DNA of 64,000 nucleotides from Algisphaera agarilytica (lineage in GTDB: Bacteria; Planctomycetota; Phycisphaerae; Phycisphaerales; Phycisphaeraceae), in NCBI RefSeq assembly GCF_014207595.1, contig NZ_JACHGY010000001.1:2176836-2240835 (forward strand), in the 5' to 3' direction. A program made the position numbers and the translations under genes. Below the pieces are notes generated by a model, which saw nothing but the letters and a program-made list of their open reading frames with translations, did not search any database and had not been told where the DNA came from. Of the stretch, positions 2,200 to 57,902 are shown piece after piece (within the stretch, counting starts at the first letter, position 1; each line of letters opens with the position of its first letter).

Positions 2200-2201
2200 C
2201 T

Positions 2202-2732: not shown

Positions 2733-2799
2733 ACCCCGAAACGTAACCACCTTACCCTTTGATTCGAACACGCTTTGAGGCAGAGCAAGGAGCATCGCC

Positions 2800-4842
2800 A
2801 TGACCTCTCGAGACAATGACAAGATCAAGCAATTTTTGATGGCCGCGGGCCTTGGGGTTGCGTTTAGCCTCACCGGCGCGTCTTACGCCCAAGCCGCCGA
2901 AGGCGACGAGCCCATCGGCTTGTTCGACGAGAACGCCCAGAGCCTCGAAGGCCAGGACGTCGCCGTCGACTCGCTCGGCCAGATCGACATCACCGTGAAA
3001 GACCTGGAGATCGCCAAGGTCCTCCAGCTGCTCTCCATCCAGAGCCAACGCAACATCGTGGCCAGCCGCAACGTCTCGGGCAAAGTGTCCGCCGACCTCT
3101 ACGGCGTCAGCTTCAACGAAGCCCTCGAAGCCATCCTCACCCCCAACGGCTACGGCTACGAGGAAAAAGGCAACTTCATCTACGTCTACACCGCCGCCGA
3201 ACTGGAAGAACGCCAGAACGCCATGCGGAAGACCGTCACCAAGGTGGTCCGCCTGAACTACATCAGCTCGGCCGACGCCTCGGCGTTTGTCACCCCGCTG
3301 CTCTCCAGCAACGGCTCGATCACCGCGACCGGCGAAGTCGACGCGGGTTTCCTGCCCAGCCAATCCGACGGTGGTGAAAACTCCTTCGCCCACGCCGACA
3401 CGCTTCTGATCCGCGACTACGAAGAAAACGTCGAAGAGATCGAAACCGTGCTGAACGAACTGGACGTGCGCCCCAAGCAGGTGCTCGTTGAAGCGACCAT
3501 CCTGCAAGCCACGCTGACCGAACAGAACGCCTTCGGCGTCGACTTCTCGGTCGTGGCCAACTTCGATGCCCTGGCCGACTTCACCAACCCGCTGGGCGTG
3601 GTTGATCAGATGATCAACGGCACCAACACCGGCGGCGGCGGTACCGGCGTCAGCAGCACCGTCGGCAACACCGCCACGGGCAACGCGGGCATCAAGGTCG
3701 GTGTCACCGGCTCCGACGCCTCGGTCTTCCTGCGTGCCCTGGATCAGGTCACCGACACCACCGTCCTGGCCAAGCCCAACATCCTTGTGCTCAACCGCCA
3801 GAAGGCCGACCTGCTCGTCGGTGAACGTCTGGGTTACCTCTCGACCACCGTGACCGATACCTCGGAAACGCAAACCATCGAGTTCCTCGATGTCGGTACC
3901 CAGCTGAGCGTCCGCCCCTTCATCAGCGAAGAAGGCAACATCCGCCTCGAACTGCGTCCTTCGGTCTCCGACGGTACCACCCGTCTCGAAGGCGGCTTCA
4001 TCATCCCTGATGAAACCACGCAGGAACTGGTCACCAACATCATCGTTGAGTCCGGCCAAACCGTGGTGCTCGGCGGCCTGTTCGTCGAAGACACCCAAGT
4101 CGGCCGCAACCAAGTGCCCGGACTGGGCGACCTGCCCTTCGTCGGTGCGGCCTTCAAGGGCCACGACGACGAGATGCGTCGCAGCGAAGTCATCTTCATG
4201 GTCAAGACCACCGTCATGGACCACGTCGACCTGGCGATCCTCGGCGAAAAAGCCAGCGACCGCGTGATGGACGCCCGCATCGGTATCCGCAACGGCCTGC
4301 TGCCCTGGTCGAACGACAAGCTCGTTAGCGCCCACCTGCTGGACGCCCAGAAGCACCTGGACGCGGGTAACACCAAGAAAGCCCTGTGGAGCGTGAACCT
4401 CGCCCTGCACCTCGCCCCGACTTCCAAAGACGCCATCACGCTGAAGGAAGAAATCACCGGCGAACCCATGCCCTACTACGACCAGACCTTCTTCGGTTCG
4501 CTGGGCGACGACATGATCGACGCCGAGATCGAACAGCTCCCCGCTGAAGAAGAAGTGATCATGCTCGAACAGTCGCTCGGCTCGACCGAACCGGCCGAAG
4601 AAGAAACCTCCACGTTCGTCGCCCCCGTCGCCGGCTTCACCGAGGCCGATAAGTCCGAGGCCGCCGAAAACGATGCCTCCACCACGATCGTCGTCGATAT
4701 GTTCGATGAGTTGACCGTCGAGGGCGAAGTCGCTGATGCGTCGACTCCGGAATCCGAAGCCCAAACCCCTTCGGAATCTGAAGAGTTCGAGGCCGCCGTG
4801 GCTGAAGTGGAAGTCGACTTTGTGGTCGGCCCCACCGACTAA
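2800..4842 (+). CDS. pilQ: PilQ-like secretin with long acidic C-terminal extension
   Basis: Outer-membrane secretin of 680 residues with AAGGAG eight bases before the ATG. A signal peptide (residues 1-32, likely cut after AQA) precedes an STN domain (about 58-130, with the ITVKDLEIAKVLQLL pattern), an N1/KH-like domain (about 145-225) and the secretin barrel (about 228-472). Hallmarks are GQTVVLGGL (419-427) and VPGLGDLPFVGAAF (439-452). Residues after about 475 do not belong to a standard secretin: a TPR-like helical segment (about 505-550) is followed by an acidic low-complexity tail to residue 680. The channel would let a pilus or pseudopilus cross the outer membrane. Co-transcribed with pilMNOP. 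Confidence 0.9.
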   Translation: MTSRDNDKIKQFLMAAGLGVAFSLTGASYAQAAEGDEPIGLFDENAQSLEGQDVAVDSLGQIDITVKDLEIAKVLQLLSIQSQRNIVASRNVSGKVSADLYGVSFNEALEAILTPNGYGYEEKGNFIYVYTAAELEERQNAMRKTVTKVVRLNYISSADASAFVTPLLSSNGSITATGEVDAGFLPSQSDGGENSFAHADTLLIRDYEENVEEIETVLNELDVRPKQVLVEATILQATLTEQNAFGVDFSVVANFDALADFTNPLGVVDQMINGTNTGGGGTGVSSTVGNTATGNAGIKVGVTGSDASVFLRALDQVTDTTVLAKPNILVLNRQKADLLVGERLGYLSTTVTDTSETQTIEFLDVGTQLSVRPFISEEGNIRLELRPSVSDGTTRLEGGFIIPDETTQELVTNIIVESGQTVVLGGLFVEDTQVGRNQVPGLGDLPFVGAAFKGHDDEMRRSEVIFMVKTTVMDHVDLAILGEKASDRVMDARIGIRNGLLPWSNDKLVSAHLLDAQKHLDAGNTKKALWSVNLALHLAPTSKDAITLKEEITGEPMPYYDQTFFGSLGDDMIDAEIEQLPAEEEVIMLEQSLGSTEPAEEETSTFVAPVAGFTEADKSEAAENDASTTIVVDMFDELTVEGEVADASTPESEAQTPSESEEFEAAVAEVEVDFVVGPTD

Positions 4843-4874
4843 ACCCGGCCCGCTTCGAAATCTAAACCTTACCG

Positions 4875-4902
4875 CCCGCCCTCTGGAACCCCGGAGGGCG
4901 GG
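4875..4902 (+). other. Intercistronic GC-rich hairpin between pilQ and the TPR gene
   Basis: Arms cccgccctc (4875-4883) and gagggcggg (4894-4902) form a perfect 9-bp stem with a 10-base loop. No run of T follows, so this is not a standard terminator. It may be a processing or mRNA-stability element that sets pilQ apart from downstream expression. Confidence 0.5.
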
Positions 4903-4931
4903 TTCACAGTCACGCCAAGGAATTCCGAGCC

Positions 4932-6137
4932 ATGCCCAGCCAGCGCACCCGTCAACGCCAAGTCCTGAGCCTCGCCGCATTCATGCTCTGTGCCACCTCC
5001 CTGATCGGCTGCACCAACAGCCACCAGGAATGGATGGACAACGCCGAGACCCGGTGGAACGGTATCCGCTCGGCCGCCATGCTCGATATGGCGAAGGGTC
5101 AGTTCGAAGCCGGTGCTTTGGACCAGGCCGAGAAGACCATCAACGAAGCCGCGGCCGTCGACGCGTCGAACCCGCAGCTCCACCTGATGGCGGGGCGGAT
5201 CTGCCTCGAACGCGGCCAACTCGAACGCGCCTACCGCCTCTTCGAGCTATCCAAAGAACTCGACGGCAACAACGCAGAAACCTACTACTACCAGGGCGTG
5301 GTGCTGCAGCGTTGGCACCAGCACGAAGCCGCGCTGGATGTATACAAGAAGGCTTACGAGCTCGAGGCCGACAAGGCCAACCGCATGCTCGCGGTGGCGG
5401 AAACCTACGTCGCGCTGGACCGCCCCGAAGACGCGATCGCTCTGCTCGAAGAAAAGAAGTTCTACTTCGACCAGAACGCAGGCCTGCGGGCGATGCTCGG
5501 CCACCTCTACAGCATGAAGAACGAGCACCGGCTGGCGGTTGAAAATTTCCGTCAGGCCACCATGCTCGATCCCGAAAACATCCGTTATCAGGAAGAGTTG
5601 GCCCTCGCCCAGGTGGCGGCCAATGCCCACGCCGACGCGGTGCACACCCTCAAGCTCCTCCTGGATCGCCCCGAGTACTCGGACCGCAACGACCTGAAGC
5701 GTTCGCTCGCTTCGGCTGAAGCAAGCCTGGGCCGTCTCGATGCGGCCCGCCAGATCTACATCGGCCTGACCCGTCAGGACCCGACCAACACCGCCGACTG
5801 GATCCGTCTGGGTGAGATCTGCTGGAAGACCGAAGACCTGGGCGGCGCCCTGATCGCCGCCAACCGTGCGATCACGCTCGCCCCGCAGCGTCACGAGGGA
5901 TACCTCCTCTCGGGGCTGGTGTGGCAGAAGCGTGAGAAGTTCGAGAACGCGCTGGAGATGTTCGACCGGGCCGCGGAGTTGGCCCCGCAAGACAGCACGC
6001 CGCTCATCCTGCGTGGCATCTCCCTCCAGAAAACCGACCGCAAAGCCGCAGCGGCCGAAGCCTACACCGAAGCGCTCAAGCGCAACCCCGAGGACGTCCG
6101 GGCCCAGCGGCTCCTCGCTCAGATCGATACGAACTGA
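4932..6137 (+). CDS. TPR-repeat lipoprotein of the pilus operon
   Basis: A 401-residue protein with a lipoprotein signal peptide: charged N-terminus, hydrophobic core, and lipobox LIGC with the Cys at about residue 27. The remainder is nearly all alpha-helical tetratricopeptide repeats (about nine units from residue 45 to 395; clear TPR signatures such as A..AYRLFELSKELDG and AAEAYTEALKRNPED). A lipidated TPR protein beside a secretin is reminiscent of PilF/PilW pilotins, which assemble secretin multimers, but those have six TPRs and are shorter; this one is larger and may have a scaffold role. It lies 89 bases after pilQ and is followed by an intrinsic terminator, so it closes the first transcription unit. 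Confidence 0.75.
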   Translation: MPSQRTRQRQVLSLAAFMLCATSLIGCTNSHQEWMDNAETRWNGIRSAAMLDMAKGQFEAGALDQAEKTINEAAAVDASNPQLHLMAGRICLERGQLERAYRLFELSKELDGNNAETYYYQGVVLQRWHQHEAALDVYKKAYELEADKANRMLAVAETYVALDRPEDAIALLEEKKFYFDQNAGLRAMLGHLYSMKNEHRLAVENFRQATMLDPENIRYQEELALAQVAANAHADAVHTLKLLLDRPEYSDRNDLKRSLASAEASLGRLDAARQIYIGLTRQDPTNTADWIRLGEICWKTEDLGGALIAANRAITLAPQRHEGYLLSGLVWQKREKFENALEMFDRAAELAPQDSTPLILRGISLQKTDRKAAAAEAYTEALKRNPEDVRAQRLLAQIDTN

Positions 6138-6170
6138 TCCAGAGCGATTAAAAAAACGTTTCAATCCAAA

Positions 6171-6199
6171 CGCCACGCGGTCGAACGCGTGGCGTTTTT
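6171..6199 (+). terminator. Rho-independent terminator after the TPR gene
   Basis: A perfect 9-bp stem cgccacgcg (6171-6179) / cgcgtggcg (6186-6194), a 6-base loop, and a T tract at 6195-6199. It lies 34 bases after the TPR stop codon and separates pilM-TPR from the HD-GYP/pilB transcription unit. Confidence 0.85.
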
Positions 6200-6528
6200 A
6201 TTGGGTGTTGTTCACGGGACCCCGGCCGCTCCGATAACTCTTGCCGTGAGGGCGCCTCTGGGTTGAAATCCCCAGCCGTCACGCCGCGCCCACGCGGTAA
6301 ATCGATACAGACCGCACAGTTAATTGCATTCCGGGTTTGGCCGAAAAATATTGTGTGTACGGATTTGCATGTAGGGCATCCGTATGCATTGGCGTCGTGC
6401 GCGCCGCAATACTGCCCAGGGAACCGAATGTTTGATCCGCGTTTCAATATGAAATCTCACGCTGCGTCGTGTGCCCAGGCACCGGCCGGCGTTGGCACGG
6501 GAGCCCGCGCTTCGGATGGAGGTGCGCG
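6200..6528. other. Gene-free leader region before the HD-GYP gene
   Basis: About 330 bases without a credible coding region. The central part (6310-6400) is AT-richer than its surroundings and contains an inverted pair acggat (6359-6364) / atccgt (6378-6383). This is where a promoter for the HD-GYP-STAS-pilB-pilC unit would be expected, but no convincingly spaced -35/-10 pair is visible. Confidence 0.4.
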
Positions 6529-8166
6529 ATGACCCCGACCCAAGCCAACCCCGCACCCCACCGGCTGGCCGATCGCATCGAAGCGATGGGTCTGTCGCTG
6601 CTGAATCTGAATGCCGAAGGCTCGGCCACGTTCGTCTGTGGCGGATCGTGGTTTGAGAAGACGTTGGTCGAATCCAACATCTTCCGCCGCGCGGTGAAAT
6701 CTCAGTTCAACGTGCTGTGCGACGGCGAGTCGTCGTTGATCACGTTGTTCCCCTGCGTGTACCTGGCCAAGCTGAAAACAGAACCCGTGTCCGCCGAAGG
6801 TCAGACCTGCGAAGCGGTGTTGATGCTGGGGCCTGAACTGCTCAAGGGCGAGATGCTCCACCGCCTGTTGGATGAAGCGAAACTCGACCATCAGGCAACG
6901 ATCAGCCGGATCGAATCCGATCGGCTGGTGAACGAGGCCGAGGCGAACCGTATCGCGTTGACGCTGGGGTGGATGCACAGCGACAGCGAAGTGCTTTCGC
7001 TTCGTCGCCGTGAACTCCACCACCTCAGCGAAGAGCTCGCGGACAACTACGAAGAACTGAGCCTGCTGTACAAGCTGTCCTGCAGCATGTCGCTGGACCA
7101 GCCGCCGACGCACTTCTTTAACGAGGCTTGTGCCGAGTTGCAGGAAGTCAGCGGCTTGGGCTGGATCGCGTTGCAGATCACCGAAGAGCAGCCGCGGCTG
7201 CAGCAACTCCGCGGCGCAATCTACACCGCCGGTGCCATCGATTCCGCCCGGCCGATCCGTCAGCTCGGCCGCGAGCTGATGCGCGATTACGGCGGCACCA
7301 CCGACACGACGATTATCGACGACACCGCCAAGATGCCCGGCGTCGCTTCCCGGGTCGGCAGCAATCTGCTGATCGTCCCCCTGGTGCGTGACGGCCAAAC
7401 GCTCGGCGTGTTGTTCGGCGGCGATCGGACCGACCACGAGCACATCGATTCGGTCGATGCCAAGCTCTGCGCCTCGTTGTGCAACACGCTGGCGATCTTC
7501 CTGGAAAACCTCATGTTCCTGGAAGACGCCCAGTCGATGTTCCTGGGCACGCTGCACGCGTTGACCAGCGCGATCGATGCCAAAGATTCGTACACGTTTG
7601 GTCACTCCGAACGCGTCGCGCTGCTGTCGGAGATGCTCGCGCGGGCGGCCGGGATCGACGAGGCGACGGTCGAGCGCATCTACCTGGCGGGTCTGGTCCA
7701 CGACGTGGGCAAGATCGGCGTGCCGGAGCGCGTCCTGTGCAAGGCGGGCCGGCTCACCGACGACGAGTTTGAACTGATCAAGATGCACCCGGGCATCGGC
7801 GCGAACATGCTCCGCGATATCCGTCAGATGGAAGACCTCATCCCCGGGGTGTTCTACCACCACGAACGGTGGGACGGCTCGGGCTACCCCGAGAAGCGAG
7901 CGGGACACGACATCCCGCTGTTTGGCCGGGTCATCGGCCTGGCCGACGCGTTCGACGCGATGAGCTCGGACCGCACCTACCGGTCCGCGTTGCGTATCGA
8001 AGAAGTGCTCGCCGAGATCGAGCGGTGCATGGGGTCACATTTCGATCCCGACCTGGCCGAGGTGTTTCTGAACCTCGATTTCGAACCCTATTTCAACATG
8101 ATCCAAAACCACCACGCCGCACGGAGCTTCGGCTCGGACTCGGTGAAGGGCAGTACCTCGTCATGA
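6529..8166 (+). CDS. HD-GYP cyclic-di-GMP phosphodiesterase with GAF-like sensor region
   Basis: A 545-residue cytoplasmic protein; the ATG at 6529 is chosen over an upstream in-frame codon because GGAGG sits 6 bases before it. The first 150 residues are unassigned, residues about 185-330 look like a GAF sensor, and residues about 340-530 form an HD-GYP domain. The HD pair (His391-Asp392 in HDVGKIG) and the HHERWDGSGYP block (about 444-454) with the GYP triplet are intact, so catalysis is expected: hydrolysis of c-di-GMP to pGpG or GMP. The gene overlaps the STAS gene by four bases (ATGA) and is followed by pilB and pilC, which ties c-di-GMP turnover to the pilus motor. What the sensor region binds is unknown. 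Confidence 0.85.
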   Translation: MTPTQANPAPHRLADRIEAMGLSLLNLNAEGSATFVCGGSWFEKTLVESNIFRRAVKSQFNVLCDGESSLITLFPCVYLAKLKTEPVSAEGQTCEAVLMLGPELLKGEMLHRLLDEAKLDHQATISRIESDRLVNEAEANRIALTLGWMHSDSEVLSLRRRELHHLSEELADNYEELSLLYKLSCSMSLDQPPTHFFNEACAELQEVSGLGWIALQITEEQPRLQQLRGAIYTAGAIDSARPIRQLGRELMRDYGGTTDTTIIDDTAKMPGVASRVGSNLLIVPLVRDGQTLGVLFGGDRTDHEHIDSVDAKLCASLCNTLAIFLENLMFLEDAQSMFLGTLHALTSAIDAKDSYTFGHSERVALLSEMLARAAGIDEATVERIYLAGLVHDVGKIGVPERVLCKAGRLTDDEFELIKMHPGIGANMLRDIRQMEDLIPGVFYHHERWDGSGYPEKRAGHDIPLFGRVIGLADAFDAMSSDRTYRSALRIEEVLAEIERCMGSHFDPDLAEVFLNLDFEPYFNMIQNHHAARSFGSDSVKGSTSS

Positions 8167-8498
8167 AACTATCACACGAAGACCAACACGAACTCACCGT
8201 TCTGACGCTTCAGGGAGACCTGGCGAACGACGAAACCGACCGCTTCCGCCGTGCCGCGTTGGAGCGGATCGACGCGCGGATCCGTGACTTCGTCCTCGAC
8301 CTCGAGGGGCTGGAAGGCATCGATTCGCAGGGACTCGAGTCGCTGCTTTGGTTGCAAGAGCAATGTGATGAACGGCTCGGGCAGGTCCGGCTGGCGGGTT
8401 GTCAGGAGCACATGAGTGCGGTGTTGAAGATGACGCGTTTGGATAACCGCTTCGAGTGTTGTGAGGACGTCGAGTCCGCCATCAAGAGTTTGGGATAA
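8163..8498 (+). CDS. STAS-domain protein (anti-sigma-factor antagonist type)
   Basis: A 111-residue single-domain protein with the STAS fold: beta-strand TVLTLQGDL, then DFVLDLEGLEGIDSQGLESLL around residues 40-60, which matches the conserved segment carrying the Ser that is phosphorylated in SpoIIAA-like antagonists. Here the position reads DSQGLE, so the phosphorylatable Ser is present. STAS proteins usually partner with an anti-sigma kinase or act as phosphorylation switches; no kinase is visible nearby. The start ATG overlaps the HD-GYP stop codon, and pilB begins 5 bases after its stop, so it is firmly inside the pilus/c-di-GMP unit and probably regulates it. Confidence 0.8.
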   Translation: MKLSHEDQHELTVLTLQGDLANDETDRFRRAALERIDARIRDFVLDLEGLEGIDSQGLESLLWLQEQCDERLGQVRLAGCQEHMSAVLKMTRLDNRFECCEDVESAIKSLG

Positions 8499-8503
8499 TT
8501 ACC

Positions 8504-10255
8504 ATGACCGCACTGAATTCCAATCAATCGTCTCCTCAGACCAACGCCGCGCCCGCCCCGCGTGTGGGCGATCTGCTGCTGGAAAAGGGGCTGATCACCG
8601 ACGAACAGATCGAGCAGGCCCTGGCGTTTCAGAAGAGCCGGGGGCACAAGAAGCTCCTGGGCGAGGTCCTGGTGGAGATGGAGTTTGTCACCACCCACCA
8701 GGTGATGGAAGCGCTGGCGGATGCCTACGGCGTCCCCTTTGCCCGCCTGACGTCGAAGATGGCCGACCCGAAGGTCGTGGGTCTTCTCGAGCGCGAGTTC
8801 CTGGAGTCCCAGACCCTGCTGCCGTTGTTCCTGGTGCAGGGTAAGCTGACACTGGCGATGGCCGAGCCGACCAACGTGTTTGTGGTCGACGAAGTCGAGC
8901 GGATGACCGGCCACACCGTGCAGGTCGTCGCGACCACGCCCCAGGACATCGAAGAAACGCTGAAGTCGGTCCTGCCCGACGGCAACGTGTTCGTCATCGA
9001 CGACATGATGGACGTGAGCGATTCCGACTTGTCGGTGGTCGAGAAGCAGATCACGGACCTGTCCGACCTCGAAAACTCGGCGTCCGAATCGCCGGTGATC
9101 AAGCTGGTGAACTACATCGTCTACGCCGCGGTGAAAGACGGGGCGAGCGATATCCACATCGAGCCCGACGACGGCAACCTACGCGTCCGCTACCGAGTCG
9201 ACGGCCGGCTGTTTGAAAAGCTGTCTCCTCCGCACCAGATGCTGGCCGCGGTGGTCAGCCGGATCAAGATCATGGCCGGCCTGGACATCTCCGAACGCCG
9301 GGTGCCCCAGGACGGCGGCATCACGATCGTGATCGACAAACGACAGATCGACCTGCGGGTCTCGACCTGCCCCGGCAAGTTCGGCGAGAAAGTCGTCATC
9401 CGGATCATCGACACCCGCAACGCGATGACCAGCCTCGACAAGCTCGGCTTCGGCTACGAGATGCTCGAAAGCTTCCGCTCGACGATCCACGAGCCCAACG
9501 GCGTGTTCCTCGTCACCGGCCCCACGGGTTCGGGTAAGTCGACCTCGCTCTACGCCGCGCTCAACGAGATCAACAACGAAGCGATCAACATCTCCACGGT
9601 CGAAGACCCCGTGGAATACAACCTGTCGGGCGTGAACCAGTTCCAGGTCAACGAGAAGGCGGGCTTCACGTTCTCCGGCGCGCTGCGGTCGCTGCTGCGT
9701 CAGGACCCGGACGTGATCATGCTCGGTGAGATCCGCGACCAGGAGACCGCCAAGATCGCCACCCAGGCCGCGCTCACCGGCCACATGGTGCTCTCGACGC
9801 TGCACACCAACGATGCGCCCTCGGCGATCACCCGGCTGTACAACATCGGCGTTGAGCCCTATCTCGTCGCGGCGTCGATCCGCGGCGTGCTGGCCCAGCG
9901 CCTGGTCCGCAAGATCTGCAAGCACTGCAAAGAACAAGTCGAGATGACCCACACCTTGGAGCGCACCATCGAGCGATTGGTGCCCGCGGGTGAGGCGCCG
10001 CTCGAGACCGTGTACCACGGCACCGGGTGTCCGAAGTGCCGCGAGACCGGTTACGCCGGGCGTCTGGGCATCTACGAACTGATGATTCCCGACGACGAAT
10101 GCCTCGACCTCATCAGCCGCGGGGCGGGGCTTCAGGAGCTGCGCCGCCACGTCGAAGCGGGGAACGGCTACACCACCCTGCGTCAGGACGGCCTGGAAAA
10201 AGTCCGTGCCGGCCTCACCACCCTCGAAGAGTTATTCAAAGCTACCGCGGGTTGA
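8504..10255 (+). CDS. pilB: PilB/GspE assembly ATPase with MshEN-type N-terminus
   Basis: A hexameric traffic ATPase of 583 residues that powers pilus or pseudopilus extension. The N-terminal 20-150 region has two repeats of the L-x-E/K-x-G/E-...-L-x-x-A-L pattern (residues 20-43 and 51-76), typical of MshEN c-di-GMP-binding domains. The catalytic domain carries Walker A GPTGSGKST (339-347), an Asp box with STVEDPVEY (about 364-372), Walker B-like VIMLGEIRD (404-412) and the His box around STLHTNDAPS (431-440). A zinc tetracysteine follows (Cys472, Cys475 and CPKC about 500-503). Length and domain order are normal. It lies between the STAS gene and pilC. No retraction ATPase PilT is seen in this window. 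Confidence 0.93.
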   Translation: MTALNSNQSSPQTNAAPAPRVGDLLLEKGLITDEQIEQALAFQKSRGHKKLLGEVLVEMEFVTTHQVMEALADAYGVPFARLTSKMADPKVVGLLEREFLESQTLLPLFLVQGKLTLAMAEPTNVFVVDEVERMTGHTVQVVATTPQDIEETLKSVLPDGNVFVIDDMMDVSDSDLSVVEKQITDLSDLENSASESPVIKLVNYIVYAAVKDGASDIHIEPDDGNLRVRYRVDGRLFEKLSPPHQMLAAVVSRIKIMAGLDISERRVPQDGGITIVIDKRQIDLRVSTCPGKFGEKVVIRIIDTRNAMTSLDKLGFGYEMLESFRSTIHEPNGVFLVTGPTGSGKSTSLYAALNEINNEAINISTVEDPVEYNLSGVNQFQVNEKAGFTFSGALRSLLRQDPDVIMLGEIRDQETAKIATQAALTGHMVLSTLHTNDAPSAITRLYNIGVEPYLVAASIRGVLAQRLVRKICKHCKEQVEMTHTLERTIERLVPAGEAPLETVYHGTGCPKCRETGYAGRLGIYELMIPDDECLDLISRGAGLQELRRHVEAGNGYTTLRQDGLEKVRAGLTTLEELFKATAG

Positions 10256-10282
10256 TCCCGCTCATCGCGATAGAGCATTGCC

Positions 10283-11509
10283 ATGCCTGATTTCGTCTAC
10301 AAAGTCCGAACCGCCGCCGGGGAGCTGACCACCGGGATGATCACCGCCGCGTCCATCGCGGATGCGGGGGGGAAGCTGCGCAGCGACGGCATGTTCATCG
10401 TGAAGCTCGATCCGAGCCGCGGCGCGAAGTCCAAAGAAGCGGGCAAAGCCAAGACCGCCTCGGCCAGCACCCGTGTGCCCCGGCCGCTGATCATCGCCTT
10501 TGCCCACCAGCTGGCGGTGATGGTGGACACCGGCGTACCGATCAGCGAGGCGTTGCACTGCATCGCGGACCAATGCGACTCGGCCGAGTTCAAACTGATC
10601 CTCGAAGACGTTGCGTCGCAGGTCGAAGCGGGGGGCGAGCTCTCGACGGCGCTGGGCCGCTTCCCCAAGGTGTTCCCCACGATCATGGTCAGCCTCGTCC
10701 GTGCTTCGGAGGTCTCCGGCACGATGGGCGTCATGCTCGAACGCATCAGCAACTACATGGGCAAGGAATACCAGACCCAGAAAAAGATCAAGGGCGCGAT
10801 GACCTACCCGGCCGTGATGCTGGCGATGGTGTTGACCGTCACGGTGGGTCTGCTGGTGTGGGTGTTGCCCCGCTTTGCCACGATCTTTGAATCCAAGGGC
10901 GCGGCGCTGCCGCTGCCGACACGGATGTTGATGTTCATCAGCGATTCGTTGATGCTGCACTGGTATCTGTGGGTCGGGGGAACCGTGGCGCTGGTGGTCG
11001 GTTTTGTGGTGGGGATGCGGACTCACGCGGGGCGCCGCGTGTTCGACCGGGTCAAGCTGTCTTCGCCGATCTTCGGCGACTTGTTCTCCAAGCTGTATGT
11101 GACGCGCTCCACGCGCACGATGGGCACGATGATCAACGCCGGGGTGCCGGTGCTGGACATGATCGCGATCGTGAAGGACGTGACCCGCAACGCGCTGTAC
11201 GAAGACCTGTGGGAAACGGTCGACGATCGCCTGCGGCAAGGGGCCCAGCTGTCCGACGCCTTGTTCGATTCGCCGCTGATCCCGCGTTCGGTTGCGCAGA
11301 TGATCTATGCGGGCGAGAAGTCGGGGCGGCTTGGCCAGACCATGGAAAAGATCGCCGGCTTCACCGAAGAAGAATTCGACGAACAGATCAAGACGACCAC
11401 CAACCTGATCGAGCCGACGATGGTCGCGATCATGGGCGGGATTGTCGGCTTCGTCGCGATCGCGCTGCTCCTGCCGATCTTCTCGGTGAGCAGCGTGGTG
11501 GGCAGCTAA
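10283..11509 (+). CDS. pilC: PilC/GspF inner-membrane platform protein
   Basis: A 408-residue polytopic protein with two T2SSF domains (about 65-190 and 270-395), each starting with the conserved LA.ML..GVP...AL pattern; the first reads HQLAVMVDTGVPISEAL. Three transmembrane helices are visible: about 172-192, 218-240 and at the C-terminus 375-400. PilC is the inner-membrane rotor on which PilB acts. It follows pilB by 27 bases and ends only 12 bases before the converging topoisomerase B gene, leaving no room for a conventional terminator. Confidence 0.92.
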   Translation: MPDFVYKVRTAAGELTTGMITAASIADAGGKLRSDGMFIVKLDPSRGAKSKEAGKAKTASASTRVPRPLIIAFAHQLAVMVDTGVPISEALHCIADQCDSAEFKLILEDVASQVEAGGELSTALGRFPKVFPTIMVSLVRASEVSGTMGVMLERISNYMGKEYQTQKKIKGAMTYPAVMLAMVLTVTVGLLVWVLPRFATIFESKGAALPLPTRMLMFISDSLMLHWYLWVGGTVALVVGFVVGMRTHAGRRVFDRVKLSSPIFGDLFSKLYVTRSTRTMGTMINAGVPVLDMIAIVKDVTRNALYEDLWETVDDRLRQGAQLSDALFDSPLIPRSVAQMIYAGEKSGRLGQTMEKIAGFTEEEFDEQIKTTTNLIEPTMVAIMGGIVGFVAIALLLPIFSVSSVVGS

Positions 11510-50429: not shown

Positions 50430-51368
50430 ATGTCACAAGCATCCGCCGATACCGAACTCACCCCCAAGGCTCCCGAGGGCGCTCCCGCCGGCTCGGCCGA
50501 TACCAGTTCGGCCGCCGCCATCCAGGAAAACGTCCAGTCTGCGATCAAAGAGATCAGCCACATCGCCACCCTCCCCGAGGTGACGATGAAGATTATCAAG
50601 CTGGTCGAAGACCCCGACTCCACCGCCCAGGACCTCAACAAGGTCATCAGCAACGACCCCGCGCTGGGTGCCCGCATCCTCAAGGTCGTGAACTCCGCGT
50701 TCTACGGCCTGCCCGGACAGATCGGCAGCATCAACCGCGCCATCGTCCTGCTGGGCCTTAACGCCGTGAAGAATATCGCCATCGCCGCGTCGCTGGCCAA
50801 GCTGTTCCGCGGCGGCAAGATCAGCAACAACTTCGACGCCCGCGACCTGTGGCAACACTCGATCGCCACCGCCGCCGCGACGCGTCTGCTCAGCAACAAG
50901 TGCGGCCTGGGCCTGCCCGACGAGGCCTTCCTCGCAGGCCTGATCCACGACATCGGCATCATGGTCGAGATCCAAGCCCGCCGTCCGAAGTTCATCGAAG
51001 CGCTGGCCATGGTCGAAGAACAGGGCTGCACCCTGCGTGAAGCCGAGTTCGCCTGCATCGGTGCGACCCACGAGATGTTCGGGGCCGGCCTCTGCAAGCT
51101 CTGGAAGTTCCCCGTGTCCTTCCAATACGTCACCGGCTTCCACCACCACCCGATGGACCTGGCCGAGAACAACCGCACCCTCGCCTGCCTGACGCATGTG
51201 GCCGACCACATCGCTGGCAAGATGGAGCTGGGCTTCGCTCACGACGTGAAGCTCGACGCCCCCATCTCCAGCGAGATCATGCAGCACCTGAACCTGAACG
51301 CGACCGACATCGACGAAGTCGCCGAACAGCTCCCCGAAGCCATGGACGAAGCCCAAGGCATTTTCTAA
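50430..51368 (+). CDS. HDOD-domain signalling protein
   Basis: A 312-residue protein dominated by one HDOD domain (about 45-250), a non-catalytic HD relative. Hallmarks: LPEVTMKIIKLVEDPDSTAQDLNKVISNDPALGARILKVVNSAFYGL and the GLIHDIGIM segment that aligns with the HD motif. It starts behind AGAGGAA. HDOD proteins act as scaffolds in c-di-GMP or chemosensory pathways in several bacteria; no catalytic signalling domain is fused here. A terminator follows. Confidence 0.92.
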   Translation: MSQASADTELTPKAPEGAPAGSADTSSAAAIQENVQSAIKEISHIATLPEVTMKIIKLVEDPDSTAQDLNKVISNDPALGARILKVVNSAFYGLPGQIGSINRAIVLLGLNAVKNIAIAASLAKLFRGGKISNNFDARDLWQHSIATAAATRLLSNKCGLGLPDEAFLAGLIHDIGIMVEIQARRPKFIEALAMVEEQGCTLREAEFACIGATHEMFGAGLCKLWKFPVSFQYVTGFHHHPMDLAENNRTLACLTHVADHIAGKMELGFAHDVKLDAPISSEIMQHLNLNATDIDEVAEQLPEAMDEAQGIF

Positions 51369-51659: not shown

Positions 51660-52046
51660 GTGTTGACGCCACTTGATTATGGGGTCGAGGATGGGGACCA
51701 CACGCCGCTGTGTGTGGGTCGGATCACGGTCCACCCCGAGAGCTACGAGGTCTACGTGGACCGCGAAAGGGTCGAGCTCACGCTGACCCAGTTCCGCCTG
51801 ATCCACGCGATGGCCAAGCGCCCCGGCTGGGTGGTCTCGGCCGAGCAATTCAACCGCCGATTCGGCCAGCCCTCTCGAGAAGCCCCGGCGACCAACGCCA
51901 ACATCAAGCATCACATCGCCGCACTGAGGCGGAAGCTCGGCCCCGGGGCCGTGCAAGTTCAGACCGTCCGCGGTCAGGGTTATCGATTGACCGAAAGTTC
52001 CCCGACGCATCGCGGAGAGATTCACGCCGATCAATCGGATTCGTAA
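51660..52046 (+). CDS. DNA-binding-only winged-helix regulator (OmpR/PhoB C-terminal type)
   Basis: A 128-residue protein made of a single Trans_reg_C domain: a four-strand sheet (residues 17-38), LTLTQFRLIHAMAKRPGWVVSAEQF (helices 1-2), the recognition region NANIKHHIAALRRKL, and wing VQTVRGQGYRL. It lacks a receiver domain, so it cannot be a normal two-component regulator; it may act with ToxR/CadC-like logic or under unknown control. GTG start. It directs the downstream pseudopilin and PEP-CTERM genes by position only (inference). Confidence 0.85.
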   Translation: MLTPLDYGVEDGDHTPLCVGRITVHPESYEVYVDRERVELTLTQFRLIHAMAKRPGWVVSAEQFNRRFGQPSREAPATNANIKHHIAALRRKLGPGAVQVQTVRGQGYRLTESSPTHRGEIHADQSDS

Positions 52047-52128
52047 TTCAACGCTAGCGTCTCTGCGACCATCGAGCATAACACTGTGCCTTCACCCGAT
52101 ATTTCCCTTATACCTGGAGCCCACGCCC

Positions 52129-53157
52129 ATGCTGGCGACCCGTAACTCGAACCGTTTCCACGCATTCACTTTGATCGAATTGCTTGTTGTTATTTCGATT
52201 ATCGCACTTTTGATCGGAATTCTCCTTCCCGCCTTGGGGGGTGCTCGTAGCGAGGCGCGTGCGATCGCGTGTGCCTCGAACATGCGCCAGGTTGCGATTG
52301 CCATGCAGGGATACACCGTCGAATCCAAGGAGTATCTTCCCGCTTCTTACTACTACCCACCCAACCCGTGGGACGGCGGGGAAACGATGTCAACTGACTG
52401 GAACCTTGTCGAGCAGGCTGGATCAAATCCTGCAGAAGGTTATATGCACTGGTCATATCTGCTGCTTGCCAGCTCCGGCGGATCGCTTGCTCTGGAGGCA
52501 TTTGCGTGCCCGGAGATGGAAAGGCGCGGCCACCCCGCTACCAACGCAAGGGACGGCGCATCTACTCCAGGCGGATACACCCCCGCCTATGCAGGAACCG
52601 TGGACCGGCAGGTGGATGTGCTGGCATACACCGCTAGCGAAATCGTGATCCCACGTAATAAATTTTTTCCTGCCGGCTCGGCTCCAATGCAGAGTAATCG
52701 ACAGGTCCGCGCTTCCGAAATTATCTCGGCAAGTGAGACCATCATGGTGACAGAATTCGTTGATAGCTACACCGGCATCTCGGATGCATCCGGTATCTCC
52801 AAGAGCCACCGTCCTGTGAACCCGGTGAACGGCGCATCAAGCGGAACCCTGGGGGCTGGTGATTCGGTTGCCGCGTTGGCGGGCGATGTCTTCAACGGCA
52901 AATTGCTCTGGTCCGATACGTCGAACTTTGGTCTTACCGACGAGGCAACGCACCTGAATCCGGGCGGCTTCCTTGAGGGGCCGAACCAAGTGGGCCGCCA
53001 CCACCCCGGTGGGGATGAATTGGGGGGGACGGCCAACTTTGCTCGTGTTGACGGCAGTACTTTCCGTGACACGATTGCGGAAAAGCAATGGGGCGCGAAG
53101 TTCTATGCCGCGACGGGCTCTCCGGAGTTCTCTTTCCTGGGGGCCGATTTCGAATAA
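52129..53157 (+). CDS. Pseudopilin with prepilin-type cleavage site and H-X9-DG-like motif
   Basis: A 342-residue protein. The prepilin signal is RFHA|FTLIELLVVISIIALLIGILLPAL, shown here in parts, with Glu at +5 but Ala instead of the usual Gly before the cleavage point. After the helical stalk comes a C-terminal domain with RHHPGGDELGGTANFARVDGS, similar to the H-X9-DG motif of planctomycete pseudopilins. GGAG lies upstream. Codon usage is less GC-biased than in neighbours. It would be processed by a prepilin peptidase and assembled or secreted by a type II/IV machinery such as the one at the left end of the window (inference). Confidence 0.88.
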   Translation: MLATRNSNRFHAFTLIELLVVISIIALLIGILLPALGGARSEARAIACASNMRQVAIAMQGYTVESKEYLPASYYYPPNPWDGGETMSTDWNLVEQAGSNPAEGYMHWSYLLLASSGGSLALEAFACPEMERRGHPATNARDGASTPGGYTPAYAGTVDRQVDVLAYTASEIVIPRNKFFPAGSAPMQSNRQVRASEIISASETIMVTEFVDSYTGISDASGISKSHRPVNPVNGASSGTLGAGDSVAALAGDVFNGKLLWSDTSNFGLTDEATHLNPGGFLEGPNQVGRHHPGGDELGGTANFARVDGSTFRDTIAEKQWGAKFYAATGSPEFSFLGADFE

Positions 53158-53252
53158 CCGTTCGGTGCTTTATTCATCACTGCGGTCGGTGTGTGCCGGC
53201 CGGATAAATGTTGTTTGTGATCAAGTGTTTGATTGATGGAGGCAGGATAATC

Positions 53253-55832
53253 ATGCAGAAGTATCGTATCGTCAAGTTCAGTACGGCAGCTCTTTTGGCC
53301 GCTGTATTCGCATCTGAATCTTCGGCCCAATTCAGCATTGGGACCAAGACCAATGAAGTCAACACCACCGGCGCTACCCTGTTCCGTGGCTTTTTCGAAG
53401 CCAATGCTCAGGGTAACGACGCGATCGATCTCGATGGCGATGGTGTTGTTACCGACCTCTCGGTCCCCACCCTCGATAACGTGTTCGGCTCGACCTTTAA
53501 CGTGCAATCCCGTGGTATCGGCTCGGGCAACGGCTTCCAGGAACTCGTTGACTTAGGTTACAACAACGGCGCGGGCGCAGCCTGGTCCAGCGGCAACTAC
53601 AACTCCAACGACTACGCGACCCTTAACTCCGTCGCGGCGACCCCCAGCTCGTCGTTCACCGGCGATGTCTACTTCGACATGTCTGCGGTCGACGTTCCCT
53701 CGGCTTGGTTCGTGACCGACACCCGCGCCGGCGCGAAGTGGGACAATTCGCCTTTCGATAACACGGGCAACGCTCCCCGTGCCGGTTACGGCAACAACGC
53801 GATCCAATCCAACATCAACATCTTCTCCGAAGGCGGAACGGGCGCTGCGGGTCAGAGCCAGAAGCTCAAGAGCCTGACCCCCACCGGCGGTGGCGGCACG
53901 ACGCTCAACCTCAACCAAGGCAACCCCGACGCCCAGACGCTGTTCGACACCGAAATCGCCTGGACCCCCATCGGCGTGTTTGCCAACTACGGGGCTCAAG
54001 TCGACTCGAACGGCTCCGCCGCCGGCGGTGAAGGTGAAGTCCGCAAGACCACCCTGCAGCACGGCTACGTGACCGGCCGAACCGAAACCGGTGAAAACCT
54101 CGGCTTCGTCGCTCGTGACTCGGGTTCGGGTACCCGCAACGGCTTCGCCAACTCGATCGGTGTCGACCCCTCGTGGGCCGGCGGAGACAACGTGGGGCAA
54201 AAGAACGGCTCGGGTGATTCGCAATTCGACCGCCTCGGCCCCGAATTCCAACCGACCCACAAGGGCGGTTCGTCGCGGATGGAAGGCACCGTCCAGAACT
54301 TCCGTCTCGCGGTCGGCTACTCCGGCCTCGCCGACGGCCTGGGCAGCAACAGCCGCGCCGGGGACGACTCGGTCGACGGCGATTACCAGCTCCTCGCCGT
54401 GGGTAACGACACCATGGCCGACTGGCTCAACAGCTACGTGTTCCCCAAGCTGGGCACCTCGGTCGCGAACGCCTCGTCCAACAACGTGGTCTTCAACGGC
54501 GACCCCAACGCCGCGCTGGCCGGCACGCCCGGTGACTTTCTCGCCCAGTCGTTCGCTCTGGTTCCCGCGGTGGAAGCTCTTCCCGATACCTCGGATACCG
54601 ACCAGTTTGTCGCCAACGGTGACTTCAGCCCGGCCCTGTCCGGCCCCGGCGGTGTCTACGATCTCGACCCCAGCCTGCTGCCCACCGACAACATCACCAC
54701 CGGGTACGGCCCGACCGCCAGCAACGGCAACCGTTACGGCAAGTATTCTGACCGCACCGACATCTCCGGCGGCGGCTTCAGCGTCACCACCTACACCGAC
54801 GGCACCGACGGTACCGTGGGCTACATCGCCAACGACGGCACGGTCCTGACCGAGGGAGGCTCGATGTTCGCGGGCAACGCGTATGCCGACCGCAACGCGA
54901 TCGCGGGTGACTTCGACGACGACGGCGACCGCGACAAGGACGACATCGCTTCGATGGTCAACGCTTACGAAAACAGCGGCGCTAAGGGTGCGGCGGCTGC
55001 TGTGGACGCCTTCGGCAACACCATCAACAGCCGCGATGCTCTGGCGGCTGGCGACGCCGAAGCCTCGCTGGAATTGCTCGGCGACTTCAACGGCGACGGC
55101 AGCTTCACCGCTGAAGACGTCCGCTACGGTGCGGACGGCCTCTTCAACCAGGGCCGCAGCGGTGAGCAACTCGATCGTAAGCAGAACTTCATCGATGTTG
55201 ATAACGCTTCGACTTCCGGCAACCTCTTTGCCACCACCCTCGCCACCGGTAAGGCTTACGCCGCCGGTGACAGCCGTGGTGACGTAGCCGGCAGTGGCTT
55301 CCAGGCTCGCGGTTGGGCCCCCCAAGGATTCGACGGCACGGTGGATGCCCAGGACATCGACTACGTCTTCGATCAGTTTGTGGGTAACAGCTTCGTGACC
55401 GATGGCGTTGCGAACTGGGCCGACCTGGATGAAGCCGCGGGCTTCGATCTCTCGGCCGACATGGACGGCGATCTCGATGTTGACCAAGACGACGTGACCG
55501 AACTCGTGACCGAAATCCTCGGCACGTTCTTCGGCGACGCGAACCTCACTGGTGAAGTCGACTTCCTGGACGTCAGCATCATCTCGGCGAACTTCAACCA
55601 GACCGGTGTGGGCTGGGCACAGGGTGACTTCAACGGCGACGGTGTCGTTGACTTCCTGGACGTCAGCATCGTGTCAGTGAACTTTAACGCGGGTGTCGGT
55701 GCCGCGGCCGAAGCGTTTGCTTCGTTCGGCATCGACGCATCGTCGGTCATCCCCGAACCCACCACCTTTGTCTTCACCGCCCTGGGCGGTCTGACCCTGA
55801 TCGGTCGTCGTCGCTCGTCGCGTCGCGCCTGA
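53253..55832 (+). CDS. PstS-like binding-protein fold fused to dockerin-like repeats and PEP-CTERM
   Basis: An 859-residue exported protein; the ATG at 53253 follows GGAGG and opens a signal peptide (1-25). Residues 35-380 match, in order, PstS-type binding-protein landmarks: GATLF (40-44), GIGSGNGFQELV (88-99), a ligand-loop DSGSGTRNGF (289-298) and AVGYSGL (353-359). The later part holds calcium-loop (dockerin/EF-hand-like) motifs at about 551, 610 and a pair at 762-810, including an exact 21-base duplication. The end VIPEPTTF - helix - RRR is a PEP-CTERM sorting signal (from residue 833). Ligand-binding is inferred from the fold; phosphate is only one possibility. Confidence 0.7.
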   Translation: MQKYRIVKFSTAALLAAVFASESSAQFSIGTKTNEVNTTGATLFRGFFEANAQGNDAIDLDGDGVVTDLSVPTLDNVFGSTFNVQSRGIGSGNGFQELVDLGYNNGAGAAWSSGNYNSNDYATLNSVAATPSSSFTGDVYFDMSAVDVPSAWFVTDTRAGAKWDNSPFDNTGNAPRAGYGNNAIQSNINIFSEGGTGAAGQSQKLKSLTPTGGGGTTLNLNQGNPDAQTLFDTEIAWTPIGVFANYGAQVDSNGSAAGGEGEVRKTTLQHGYVTGRTETGENLGFVARDSGSGTRNGFANSIGVDPSWAGGDNVGQKNGSGDSQFDRLGPEFQPTHKGGSSRMEGTVQNFRLAVGYSGLADGLGSNSRAGDDSVDGDYQLLAVGNDTMADWLNSYVFPKLGTSVANASSNNVVFNGDPNAALAGTPGDFLAQSFALVPAVEALPDTSDTDQFVANGDFSPALSGPGGVYDLDPSLLPTDNITTGYGPTASNGNRYGKYSDRTDISGGGFSVTTYTDGTDGTVGYIANDGTVLTEGGSMFAGNAYADRNAIAGDFDDDGDRDKDDIASMVNAYENSGAKGAAAAVDAFGNTINSRDALAAGDAEASLELLGDFNGDGSFTAEDVRYGADGLFNQGRSGEQLDRKQNFIDVDNASTSGNLFATTLATGKAYAAGDSRGDVAGSGFQARGWAPQGFDGTVDAQDIDYVFDQFVGNSFVTDGVANWADLDEAAGFDLSADMDGDLDVDQDDVTELVTEILGTFFGDANLTGEVDFLDVSIISANFNQTGVGWAQGDFNGDGVVDFLDVSIVSVNFNAGVGAAAEAFASFGIDASSVIPEPTTFVFTALGGLTLIGRRRSSRRA

Positions 55833-55847
55833 TGACATCGCAAACAT

Positions 55848-55878
55848 GCCGGGCGGCCGATTGGCTCGGCCGCCCGGC
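55848..55878 (+). other. Strong intercistronic hairpin between the two PEP-CTERM genes
   Basis: A perfect 13-bp GC-rich stem gccgggcggccga (55848-55860) / tcggccgcccggc (55866-55878) with a 5-base loop. A T tract does not follow directly. It may limit read-through or stabilise the upstream message, giving different expression levels of the two exported proteins. Confidence 0.65.
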
Positions 55879-55914
55879 CCACTTAGTTAACCCCTTTATT
55901 TGGAGAGAATGGAT

Positions 55915-56475
55915 ATGAAGTCTATGTTTAAAGCCGGTGCACTCGCCCTGTCGTTCGCGGTCTCCGGTGCTGCCTATGCTCAGCCCCAAATCACGGTGAC
56001 CCAAGACGTCTCGACGGGCGGAAACGCGCTGTTTACCTTCGAGATCAACGCCAACGGCGTCAACTACGACACCATCAACTTCACCACCACCGCGACCGCC
56101 GGCCAGTTCCTGCAGACCGAGACCGCGGTTGGCGTGTACAACTTTGTTGCCGGTAACGATGACTCGGACATCCTGGGTCTTCCCACGATCGGCTCGGGCC
56201 TCTCGGTGCTTGGCAATGTCGATACCACCTCGGAAATCGCCGGCACCATCACCACCTTCGGTGGCGCTCCCACCACCTCGCTGAACGGCGGCTTCGCCCA
56301 AGTCGTCTTCGCCGATGGCGAGCCCGGTGCCGGTCAGTACCAGGCCCTGTTCGCTCTCAACGGTGATCAAGTGGCTGCGGTCAACGGCAGCTACGTGATC
56401 CCCGAGCCCGCCTCCCTGGCCCTGGTTGGCCTCGGTGGCCTGGCCATGGCGGCCCGCCGCCGGCGCCTCGCCTGA
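55915..56475 (+). CDS. Small PEP-CTERM protein
   Basis: A 186-residue exported protein. ATG at 55915 sits seven bases after GGAGAG (a nearer ATG at 55909 is too close). The signal peptide ends after AYA (about residue 22). The mature part is beta-rich and acidic with few charges and no Cys, and ends with VIPEPASLALVGLGGLAMAARRR, a textbook PEP-CTERM signal. The ligand or partner is unknown; the proximity to a dockerin-like protein makes a cohesin-like fold worth testing, but I cannot show this. Confidence 0.85.
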   Translation: MKSMFKAGALALSFAVSGAAYAQPQITVTQDVSTGGNALFTFEINANGVNYDTINFTTTATAGQFLQTETAVGVYNFVAGNDDSDILGLPTIGSGLSVLGNVDTTSEIAGTITTFGGAPTTSLNGGFAQVVFADGEPGAGQYQALFALNGDQVAAVNGSYVIPEPASLALVGLGGLAMAARRRRLA

Positions 56476-56660: not shown

Positions 56661-57902
56661 ATGGCCGCTTCGTCCGACCCCAAGAAAATCGTCCTCGCCT
56701 ACTCCGGCGGGCTCGACACCTCCGTCATCCTGCCCTGGCTCAAGGGCCGTTACCCCGGCGTGAAGCTGGTCTGTTTTGCCGCGGAACTCGGTCAGGGCGA
56801 TGAGCTCGACGGCATCGAGAAGAAGGCCTACGCCAGCGGCGCGGACGAAGTCGTCGTGAAGGACCTGCGTAAAGAGTTTGCCGAGCAGTACTGCTTCCCG
56901 ATGATCCGGGCCCACGCGGTGTACGAGTCGGACTACCTGCTGGGCACCTCGATCGCCCGGCCGCTGATCGCCAAGCACCAGGTCATGGTCGCCAAGCAGA
57001 CCAAGGCCGACGCGGTGGGCCACGGCGCGACCGGCAAGGGCAACGACCAGGTCCGCTTCGAGCTGACCGCCCGGGCGCTTAATCCCAAGCTCAAGATCAT
57101 CTCGCCGTGGAAAGACCCCGTGTTCATCGAAGACGGCCTGACCGACCGCGAGACCGCGATCGACTACGCCAAGAAGCACAAGATCCCGATCGACCAGACG
57201 ACCAAGAAGATCTACTCGCGCGACCGCAACCTCTGGCACATCAGCCACGAGGGCGCCGAGATCGAAGACCCCGCCACCGAGCCGAACTGGAAGAACTGCC
57301 TGGTCATGTCCGTGCCCGTCGAGAAGGCCCCGGCCAAGGCGCAGTACGTCACCGTCACCTTCGAGAAGGGCAACCCCGTCGCGGTGGACGGTAAGGACTT
57401 CAAGGGCGCGGGCCACGAACTGATCGCCCGGCTGAACAACATCGGCGGCCAACACGCCGTCGGCCAAACTGTGCTCACCGAGAACCGCCTGGTCGGCATG
57501 AAGTCGCGCGGCGTGTACGAAACGCCCGGCGGAACGATCCTCTACGAAGCCCACAAGGCCCTCGAACAGCTCTGCCTCGAACGCGACCTGTGGCACGAGA
57601 AGATCCGCCTCGCCACGCGGTACGCCGAGCTGACCTACAACGGCCAGTGGTTCCACCCGCTCCGCGAAGCGCTGCAGTCCTTCATGGACGAGGCGAACAA
57701 GGTCATCACAGGTACCGTGAAGGTCAAGCTGTATAAGGGCACCGCGATGGCCGTCGAAGCCGACAGCCCGCAGAGCCTGTACGACCCCGAGCTCGCCAGC
57801 TTCGCGATGGACGGCTACGACATCACCGCCGCCCGCGGCTTCATCGACCTCTACGGCCTGCCCATGCAGGTCCGCGGCATGCGGCAGAAGGTCAAAAAGT
57901 AA
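56661..57902 (+). CDS. argG: Argininosuccinate synthase
   Basis: A 413-residue arginine-biosynthesis enzyme that joins citrulline and aspartate with ATP. The ATP-binding P-loop AYSGGLDTS (13-21) and the conserved YAS..DE...KDL stretch are present; HGATGKGNDQVRFE and SRGVYETPGGTIL are family hallmarks. Normal length; AGGA lies 9 bases before the ATG. Other arg genes are not adjacent. Confidence 0.96.
   Translation: MAASSDPKKIVLAYSGGLDTSVILPWLKGRYPGVKLVCFAAELGQGDELDGIEKKAYASGADEVVVKDLRKEFAEQYCFPMIRAHAVYESDYLLGTSIARPLIAKHQVMVAKQTKADAVGHGATGKGNDQVRFELTARALNPKLKIISPWKDPVFIEDGLTDRETAIDYAKKHKIPIDQTTKKIYSRDRNLWHISHEGAEIEDPATEPNWKNCLVMSVPVEKAPAKAQYVTVTFEKGNPVAVDGKDFKGAGHELIARLNNIGGQHAVGQTVLTENRLVGMKSRGVYETPGGTILYEAHKALEQLCLERDLWHEKIRLATRYAELTYNGQWFHPLREALQSFMDEANKVITGTVKVKLYKGTAMAVEADSPQSLYDPELASFAMDGYDITAARGFIDLYGLPMQVRGMRQKVKK

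Follow-up and report, generated by a model that had tools for sequence, protein, structure and literature searches.

What does a PstS-like binding protein do at a place on the chromosome where its constant companion is a pseudopilin and where no transporter is encoded? The question is raised by a locus of Algisphaera agarilytica within a stretch of 64,000 nucleotides (contig NZ_JACHGY010000001.1, positions 2,176,836 to 2,240,835), the whole of which is called the window here. A sequence-only reading had listed four genes at this locus, namely a winged-helix regulator without a receiver domain, a pseudopilin, a PstS-like protein of 859 amino acids (aa) and a PEP-CTERM protein, and all four were found where it had placed them (Table 1). 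The best explanation of the core is a two-gene module, in which a secreted PstS-like protein bearing calcium-loop repeats is partnered by a pseudopilin dedicated to it; the two genes are shown to be adjacent and co-inherited across the sampled class. On balance, we favour a phosphate-capture protein that would be linked to the phosphate (Pho) genes and secreted with its own pseudopilin, similar to Psp of Pseudomonas fluorescens but of another family; the surface location, the phosphate binding and the joint function of the module are what we infer from the evidence below.

The pseudopilin and its constant neighbour

In a family-level search, near full-length relatives of the PstS-like protein were found in 9 of 50 genomes besides the window's own, and in a class-level search the gene was matched in 97 of 397 genomes; a phylum sample gave matches in 9 of 392 genomes, every one in the window's own order. 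A scan of contigs with two short patterns, which for that reason gives a partial view, returned 15 loci with titles naming Phycisphaera, Phycisphaeraceae, Phycisphaerales, Phycisphaerae, Sedimentisphaerales or Planctomycetota. Of the 90 inspected loci, one is the window, 9 come from the family search (5 overlapping with the class sample) and a further 80 were taken from the class sample; 11 of the 97 class genomes, with weak or fragmentary matches, were left out. The window's family is Phycisphaeraceae according to record titles and accounts for 10 of the 90 loci. Genes of the relatives were called with a home-made codon-usage caller that may err at individual loci (for L044 its call fell on the wrong strand), and for pilins the five best of tens to hundreds of first-look candidates were scored per listed genome.

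The window pseudopilin carries both marks of a type IV pilin-like/DUF1559 pseudopilin, a prepilin N-terminus (N_methyl, 28.1 bits, cut-off 21.2) and a DUF1559 region (DUF1559/SBP_bac_10, 30.8 bits, cut-off 23.3), the latter with an RHH..GGT.NF..DG motif, and a C-terminal tail of the WG..FYS.TG type is seen as well (family alignment, n = 14). In 87 of the 90 loci the PstS-like gene is preceded, within 485 bp and in the same orientation, by a homologue of this pseudopilin (expectation value, E, of 2.4e-66 or better). One of the three exceptions (L167) stops at a contig edge, and the other two (L098 and L157) are without an adjacent pilin, which their genomes (G268 and G347) carry elsewhere. Judged by coordinates, two of the other 11 loci have the pilin and the matched part on different contigs; nine have the pilin about 1 kb or less upstream of that part and in the same orientation. 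A pilin at E ≤ 1e-40 is present in 96 of the 97 genomes with the PstS-like gene versus 11 of 300 without it (Fisher p = 2.6e-78, uncorrected for kinship), and of the 107 genomes holding the subfamily, 100 gave a single match and seven gave two or three, with the five best candidates scored in each. The pilin subfamily is dedicated to its PstS-like partner, and this strict coupling of one subfamily to one partner is the surprising part. Of the four-gene order in the sequence-only reading, it is this inner pair that recurs. Within the window's family, 7 of the 10 loci have the regulator in the position preceding the pilin, and among the 89 other loci 3 have a relative of the small PEP-CTERM gene next to the module; both genes are accessory.

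The window pseudopilin was itself missed by the gene caller, scoring below the threshold of a model trained on neighbouring genes, and its codon usage may therefore be atypical. It is one of many, as there are 62 prepilin signals in the 4.2 Mb of the window genome, and several lone pilins were seen by eye to adjoin sulfatase-like, transporter-like or hydrolase-like genes. The broader rule that every pseudopilin adjoins its secreted PEP-CTERM or dockerin cargo is unsupported (4 of 28 places versus 6 of 90 background genes, Fisher p = 0.25). That comparison took in 39 of the 62 prepilin places, leaving out the module, clustered pilins and those by pilus genes; the 28 are places with a same-strand neighbour within 500 bp, and the 90 background genes include the module's own. 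A further set of genes, resembling those of a type IV pilus or type II secretion system (T2SS), lies at 43-11509 of the window, 40 kb from the module, and encodes PilM, PilN, PilO, a secretin, a T2SSE ATPase and T2SSF.

The PstS-like fold among phosphate genes

The 859-aa protein begins with a signal peptide, recognised by eye. Its first 500 residues gave no match to PstS in Pfam, in NCBIfam or, as a single sequence, in the PDB, and ten members of the family gave no PstS model at E ≤ 1 in Pfam and NCBIfam; because canonical PstS sequence models are not matched, the protein is named PstS-like only. The window domain contains the motifs GATLF, RGIGSGNG, DVP and RDSGSGTRN, ten near full-length members retain GATLF, DVP, RD.GSGTRN and R..GS, and the R, G, S, G and T of the R..GSGT motif are invariant in 45 of 45 aligned domains. 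When the profile of these 45 domains was compared with 177,635 PDB sequences, four were returned at E ≤ 10, all of them phosphate-binding proteins (E of 0.014, 0.017, 0.1 and 0.14), and the alignment puts the R..GSG stretch of the family on the matching stretch of 4ecf, 4q8r, 4gd5 and 4exl (GSGS in the last). We take the R..GSGT residues to be the phosphate-binding ones; a literature search on which residues bind phosphate gave nothing useful. With hhalign, against eight canonical PstS proteins from these genomes, the 45 sequences reached a probability of 48% (E = 1.9e-4) and 10 sequences only 2.8% (E = 0.016), and neither run alone settles the fold.

The structure model of the window protein has a mean predicted local distance difference test score (pLDDT) of 50.2, with the binding domain below 50 nearly throughout, and Foldseek found only two matches to it, a double-dockerin and a cohesin-dockerin entry (E of 2.7 and 9.4). 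Since this model is poor in the binding domain, the domain of an orthologue (L048) was modelled, with a modest outcome (predicted template modelling score 0.66, mean pLDDT 58). All 21 Foldseek matches of the orthologue model at E ≤ 0.001 are phosphate-binding proteins, and in a VIA alignment it reached Z 15.7 with 4lat (PstS1 of Streptococcus pneumoniae, 246 residues at 3.8 Å); phosphate-binding proteins fill the first 38 rows, followed by LysR-type domains at about Z 10. At the level of the model, the orthologue binding domain is confirmed as a PstS-type fold, that is, a type II periplasmic binding protein fold closest to phosphate-binding proteins. The fold had earlier been read by eye in the window protein, and it is on the orthologue model and the family profile, not on the window protein itself, that it is now borne out.

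When all nearby genes were clustered, with no families picked beforehand, and ranked by number of families, the top recurrent neighbour was the pilin. It is followed by a cluster of ATP-binding cassette ATPases (14 loci, 6 families, not all PstB), Pst permeases (9 loci, 5 families), canonical PstS (9 loci, 5 families), PhoB-type regulators (8 loci, 4 families, including two extended regulators of G043 and G044), a cluster of kinases containing PhoR (6 loci, 3 families) and PhoU (6 loci, 3 families). The pair has Pst or PhoU genes in its vicinity in 11 of the 90 loci (L088, L089, L091, L094, L097, L118, L121, L127, L131, L164 and L167), in 8 genera and 5 families and in several orientations, which supports the phosphate link that had been suggested for the window; L089 is counted through a PstS-cluster gene alone, named by clustering without NCBIfam. 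About 0.4 such loci would be expected by chance if a single pst cluster were placed randomly in about 4.3 Mb. With an assumed Poisson mean of 0.8, the probability of at least ten is 1.4e-8 and that of at least seven 2e-5; with an assumed mean of 1.6, these become 7e-6 and 1.3e-3.

The fullest arrangement is that of L131, where one strand carries phoB, phoR, the pilin, the PstS-like gene, canonical pstS, pstC, pstA, pstB and phoU in this order, with PhoU, PstB, PstA, PstC and PstS above the NCBIfam cut-off. In L131 and L088 the regulator has PhoB as its best NCBIfam match, below cut-off, and the kinases match the PnpS and PhoR models; in L094, L097 and L164 one gene each is confirmed above cut-off, the remaining names being given by similarity. 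The pair follows genes of phoB and phoR type, encoded in the same direction, in L088 (where a phosphatase-like gene intervenes), L089, L097 and L131; the names in L089 and L097 come from clustering only. Canonical PstS is present in 9 of the 11 Pho-linked loci, and the PstS-like protein is therefore additional to PstS. The earlier remark that no transporter is present holds at the locus itself but not for the genome, which has a canonical pstSCAB set and a phoB-phoR-type pair, both distant from the module. Because the pair sits within a phosphate-starvation cluster in several relatives, the data suggest a phosphate-scavenging device on the surface of these aquatic and soil bacteria.

Two other kinds of gene were noted in this context. 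Next to canonical PstS, 4 of the Pho-linked loci, from 2 families, have a gene that by eye is porin-like (for example L088:4277-5596, L118:18932-19999 and L167:4202-5335), the one of L088 having no NCBIfam match at E ≤ 1e-5, and a gene of the low-molecular-weight phosphatase/arsenate reductase type is near the module in L088, L118, L127 and L132 (4 loci, 3 families).

Accessory parts and flanks

Table 1. Features of the locus and its flanks, in window coordinates.
Feature	Position	Strand	Basis
HDOD protein gene (conserved flank, outside the proposed function)	50430..51368	+	PF08668, E 7.4e-57
Stand-alone OmpR/PhoB-type winged-helix DNA-binding protein, 128 aa, no receiver domain	51660..52046	+	PF00486, E 2.5e-13
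Dedicated pseudopilin, 342 aa	52129..53157	+	N_methyl and DUF1559 above cut-off
Signal peptide and PstS-like domain of the 859-aa protein (P0003, 53253-55832)	53253..54890	+	Family profile against PDB, hhalign, orthologue structure
Calcium-loop (dockerin-like) repeat region of the 859-aa protein	54891..55742	+	Dockerin_1 (PF00404), 22.2 bits, just below cut-off 22.9; model
PEP-CTERM-like C-terminal sorting signal of the 859-aa protein, sub-threshold	55743..55832	+	12.5 bits, cut-off 20.7
Small PEP-CTERM protein, 186 aa (P0004), accessory	55915..56475	+	PF07589, 27.0 bits, cut-off 20.7
argG-like flank gene	56661..57902	+	83% identity to copies in G043 and G044

The repeat region is the better part of the window model, with ten-residue pLDDT means of 68-92 except in two blocks, and dockerin-like repeats are found in the PstS-like family. 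Cellulosome-like attachment was considered and rejected, since the window genome yielded no cohesin in Pfam at E ≤ 0.001. Three exosortases score over the cut-off in that genome. Of the 87 homologues whose C-terminus is complete, 13 have a PEP-CTERM end by pattern: all 9 from the window's family, all 4 from f14 and 0 of 74 elsewhere. Such an end, general by pattern in the window's own family, does not define the family of homologues. In place of PEP-CTERM, the homologue in L057 (7917-16212) has the C-terminal tail ..PEDQDV.DFFNVLAGG.CP, with which two neighbouring genes also end and which is possibly another surface-sorting signal.

For the 128-aa regulator, PF00486 (Trans_reg_C) is the sole Pfam match at E ≤ 1, and the receiver of a PhoB protein is not found. 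Only two proteins with this DNA-binding domain were returned by a search of the window genome, the regulator and a PhoB-type one. Apart from the regulator's own orthologues, BLAST gives PhoB-type domains at E of 1.7e-16 to 1.1e-13, versus 2e-8 or weaker for the other OmpR-type domains compared, and because these nearest domains are of PhoB type, a derivation from PhoB is plausible on sequence grounds. The regulator tree did not resolve; at least one of its rows (the G135 slot) was translated in the wrong frame, and it is missing four of the rows planned for it. The regulators of G043 and G044 have an N-terminal extension of about 165-200 aa without a Pfam receiver match, which by eye looks like a degenerate receiver.

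The gene downstream of the module is a putative argG. HDOD and argG-like flanks enclose the locus also in G043 and G044, two genomes of one genus in the window's family, and the argG-like flank, common to all three, shows that the locus is inherited vertically there. Between the module and the argG-like gene, these two genomes have a second pseudopilin and a PEP-CTERM protein of 620-630 aa (L041:5564-8459 and L042:4786-7557), the G043 copy with a dockerin match, which makes another pair of pilin and secreted protein.

Explanations and known systems

The favoured reading, a Pho-linked phosphate-capture protein with its own pseudopilin, can be put as a series of steps. The PstS-like protein would be exported, with the dedicated pseudopilin, by the pilus/T2SS-like machine of the window genome (secretin, ATPase, platform protein and PilM/N/O), and it would be kept outside by the calcium-loop repeats and, in the window's family, also by a PEP-CTERM signal cut by an exosortase. 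It would then concentrate phosphate outside the cell, with uptake left to the separate canonical PstS-PstCAB. In the window, the receiver-less PhoB-type protein has probably assumed local control of the pair.

Several observations weigh against this reading. At about residue 420 (window 54500-54560), the window protein is without 53 alignment columns that are filled in 44 of 44 other aligned relatives; the missing stretch belongs to the modelled fold, the gene stays in frame, and the gap is either an in-frame loss or an assembly fault. Because a segment of the fold kept by all of those relatives is gone, the window allele may be altered or impaired. The fold assignment itself depends on predictions of limited quality, poor for the window binding domain and modest for the orthologue. 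The two loci without an adjacent pilin (L098 and L157) count here as well, the other pilins of the window genome are not clearly enriched beside PEP-CTERM or dockerin proteins, and the adjacency of the pseudopilin is a link, not a proof that it exports its partner. By pattern, 74 of the 87 complete homologues have no PEP-CTERM signal, and in 79 of the 90 loci, the window included, there is no pst gene within the stretch examined. Finally, the Pho box (CTGTCAT-N4-CTGTCAT) is not enriched ahead of the pilin: over the 300 bp preceding each of 86 pilin genes its mean best score was 8.76 of 14 positions, versus 8.71 in shuffled sequence. This comparison used a box of the Escherichia coli type and pilin upstream regions only, and the class may use another box. 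The sole strong candidate is in L041 (12 of 14 positions, reached by none of 40 shuffles), and the stretch upstream of the window regulator has a site of 10 of 14.

Of the alternatives, the one that survives best is display on a pilus for capture or sensing, where the pseudopilin would form or cap a filament bearing the PstS-like protein, which would report or gather external phosphate with none secreted free. That a single pilin subfamily is so strictly paired with a single binding protein would suit such a filament, as would the PhoB-PhoR-type genes that precede the pair on the same strand in four loci, but contact between pilin and PstS-like protein would have to be assumed, and we regard this explanation as unlikely. 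More doubtful still is an adhesion or matrix protein, in which an old phosphate-binding fold would have been reused as a calcium-stabilised surface or biofilm protein, its pst linkage inherited from its origin. The dockerin-like repeats, the PEP-CTERM ends in some homologues, the lost fold segment of the window copy and the many loci without a pst neighbour could all be accommodated in this way; the invariance of R..GSGT in every aligned domain, however, is beyond what adhesion alone would need, and the pst/phoU linkage recurs in 5 families with differing orientations. That the protein is an alternative binding protein supplying PstCAB directly in the periplasm is very improbable, for although its gene lies just upstream of canonical pstS-pstC-pstA on the same strand in some relatives, canonical PstS is encoded in most Pho-linked loci, the window genome has its own pstSCAB, and the PstS-like protein is of about 850 aa or more, with surface-type repeats.

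Beyond the favoured phosphate-capture reading, we tentatively raise, as a possibility that we would not yet lean on, a class-wide and previously undescribed phosphate-acquisition device that would belong to the phosphate-starvation response, in which a cargo-specific pseudopilin would load a single PstS-like protein onto the cell surface or display it there. If this were true, the large pseudopilin families of planctomycetes would include nutrient-specific adaptors for export or display, and the window genome would add to the device a receiver-less regulator and a binding domain minus one segment. Planctomycete genomes hold dozens of pseudopilins of obscure purpose, and here one of them is tied near-invariably to a single partner of recognisable fold. 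The pair has a metabolic context in several lineages, which gives a directly testable handle on the roles of pseudopilins, and it indicates a step in which these bacteria would scavenge phosphate at their surface.

Type II secretion of PstS-type proteins is already known from Psp of P. fluorescens SBW25 (PMC2225411). Psp is reported to be a DING exoprotein released mainly via the Hxc T2SS under limitation of inorganic phosphate; its gene is linked to secretion genes, it is extra to canonical PstS, and it was proposed to scavenge extracellular phosphate for Pst. The locus had been put forward as an undescribed system, and among the titles and abstract openings listed by the literature searches none names a pair of pseudopilin and PstS-like protein; the function, on the other hand, has a described analogue in Psp.

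The PstS-like protein shares with DING proteins the PstS-type fold (DING structures give Z 10.5-11.3 with the orthologue model) and, with Psp, its position as an extra protein beside canonical PstS and the linkage of its gene to secretion genes; secretion and phosphate scavenging would, by analogy, be shared too. Unlike DING proteins, it has no DINGGG N-terminus (by eye in P0003 and nine relatives, the motif taken as given in PMC2225411), it has calcium-loop repeats and sometimes a PEP-CTERM end, and its gene is in or near pst clusters in several relatives; unlike the psp gene, that gene is tied to one dedicated pseudopilin and not to a whole T2SS cluster. With canonical PstS (TIGR02136) it has in common the fold and the R..GSGT-type motif, but its domain is of about 500 aa, with long insertions and added repeats, and it usually accompanies canonical PstS and does not replace it. 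By BLAST, and after its own orthologues, the regulator has its closest DNA-binding domains among PhoB-type response regulators, from which the window protein differs in having no receiver. The pseudopilin, for its part, has the N_methyl and DUF1559 regions of the planctomycete pseudopilins, of which Rhodopirellula baltica is reported to have 74 DUF1559 genes (PMC2754498); it is set apart from the others in that its subfamily, among the five best candidates scored, is typically a single match per genome, bound to one partner gene.

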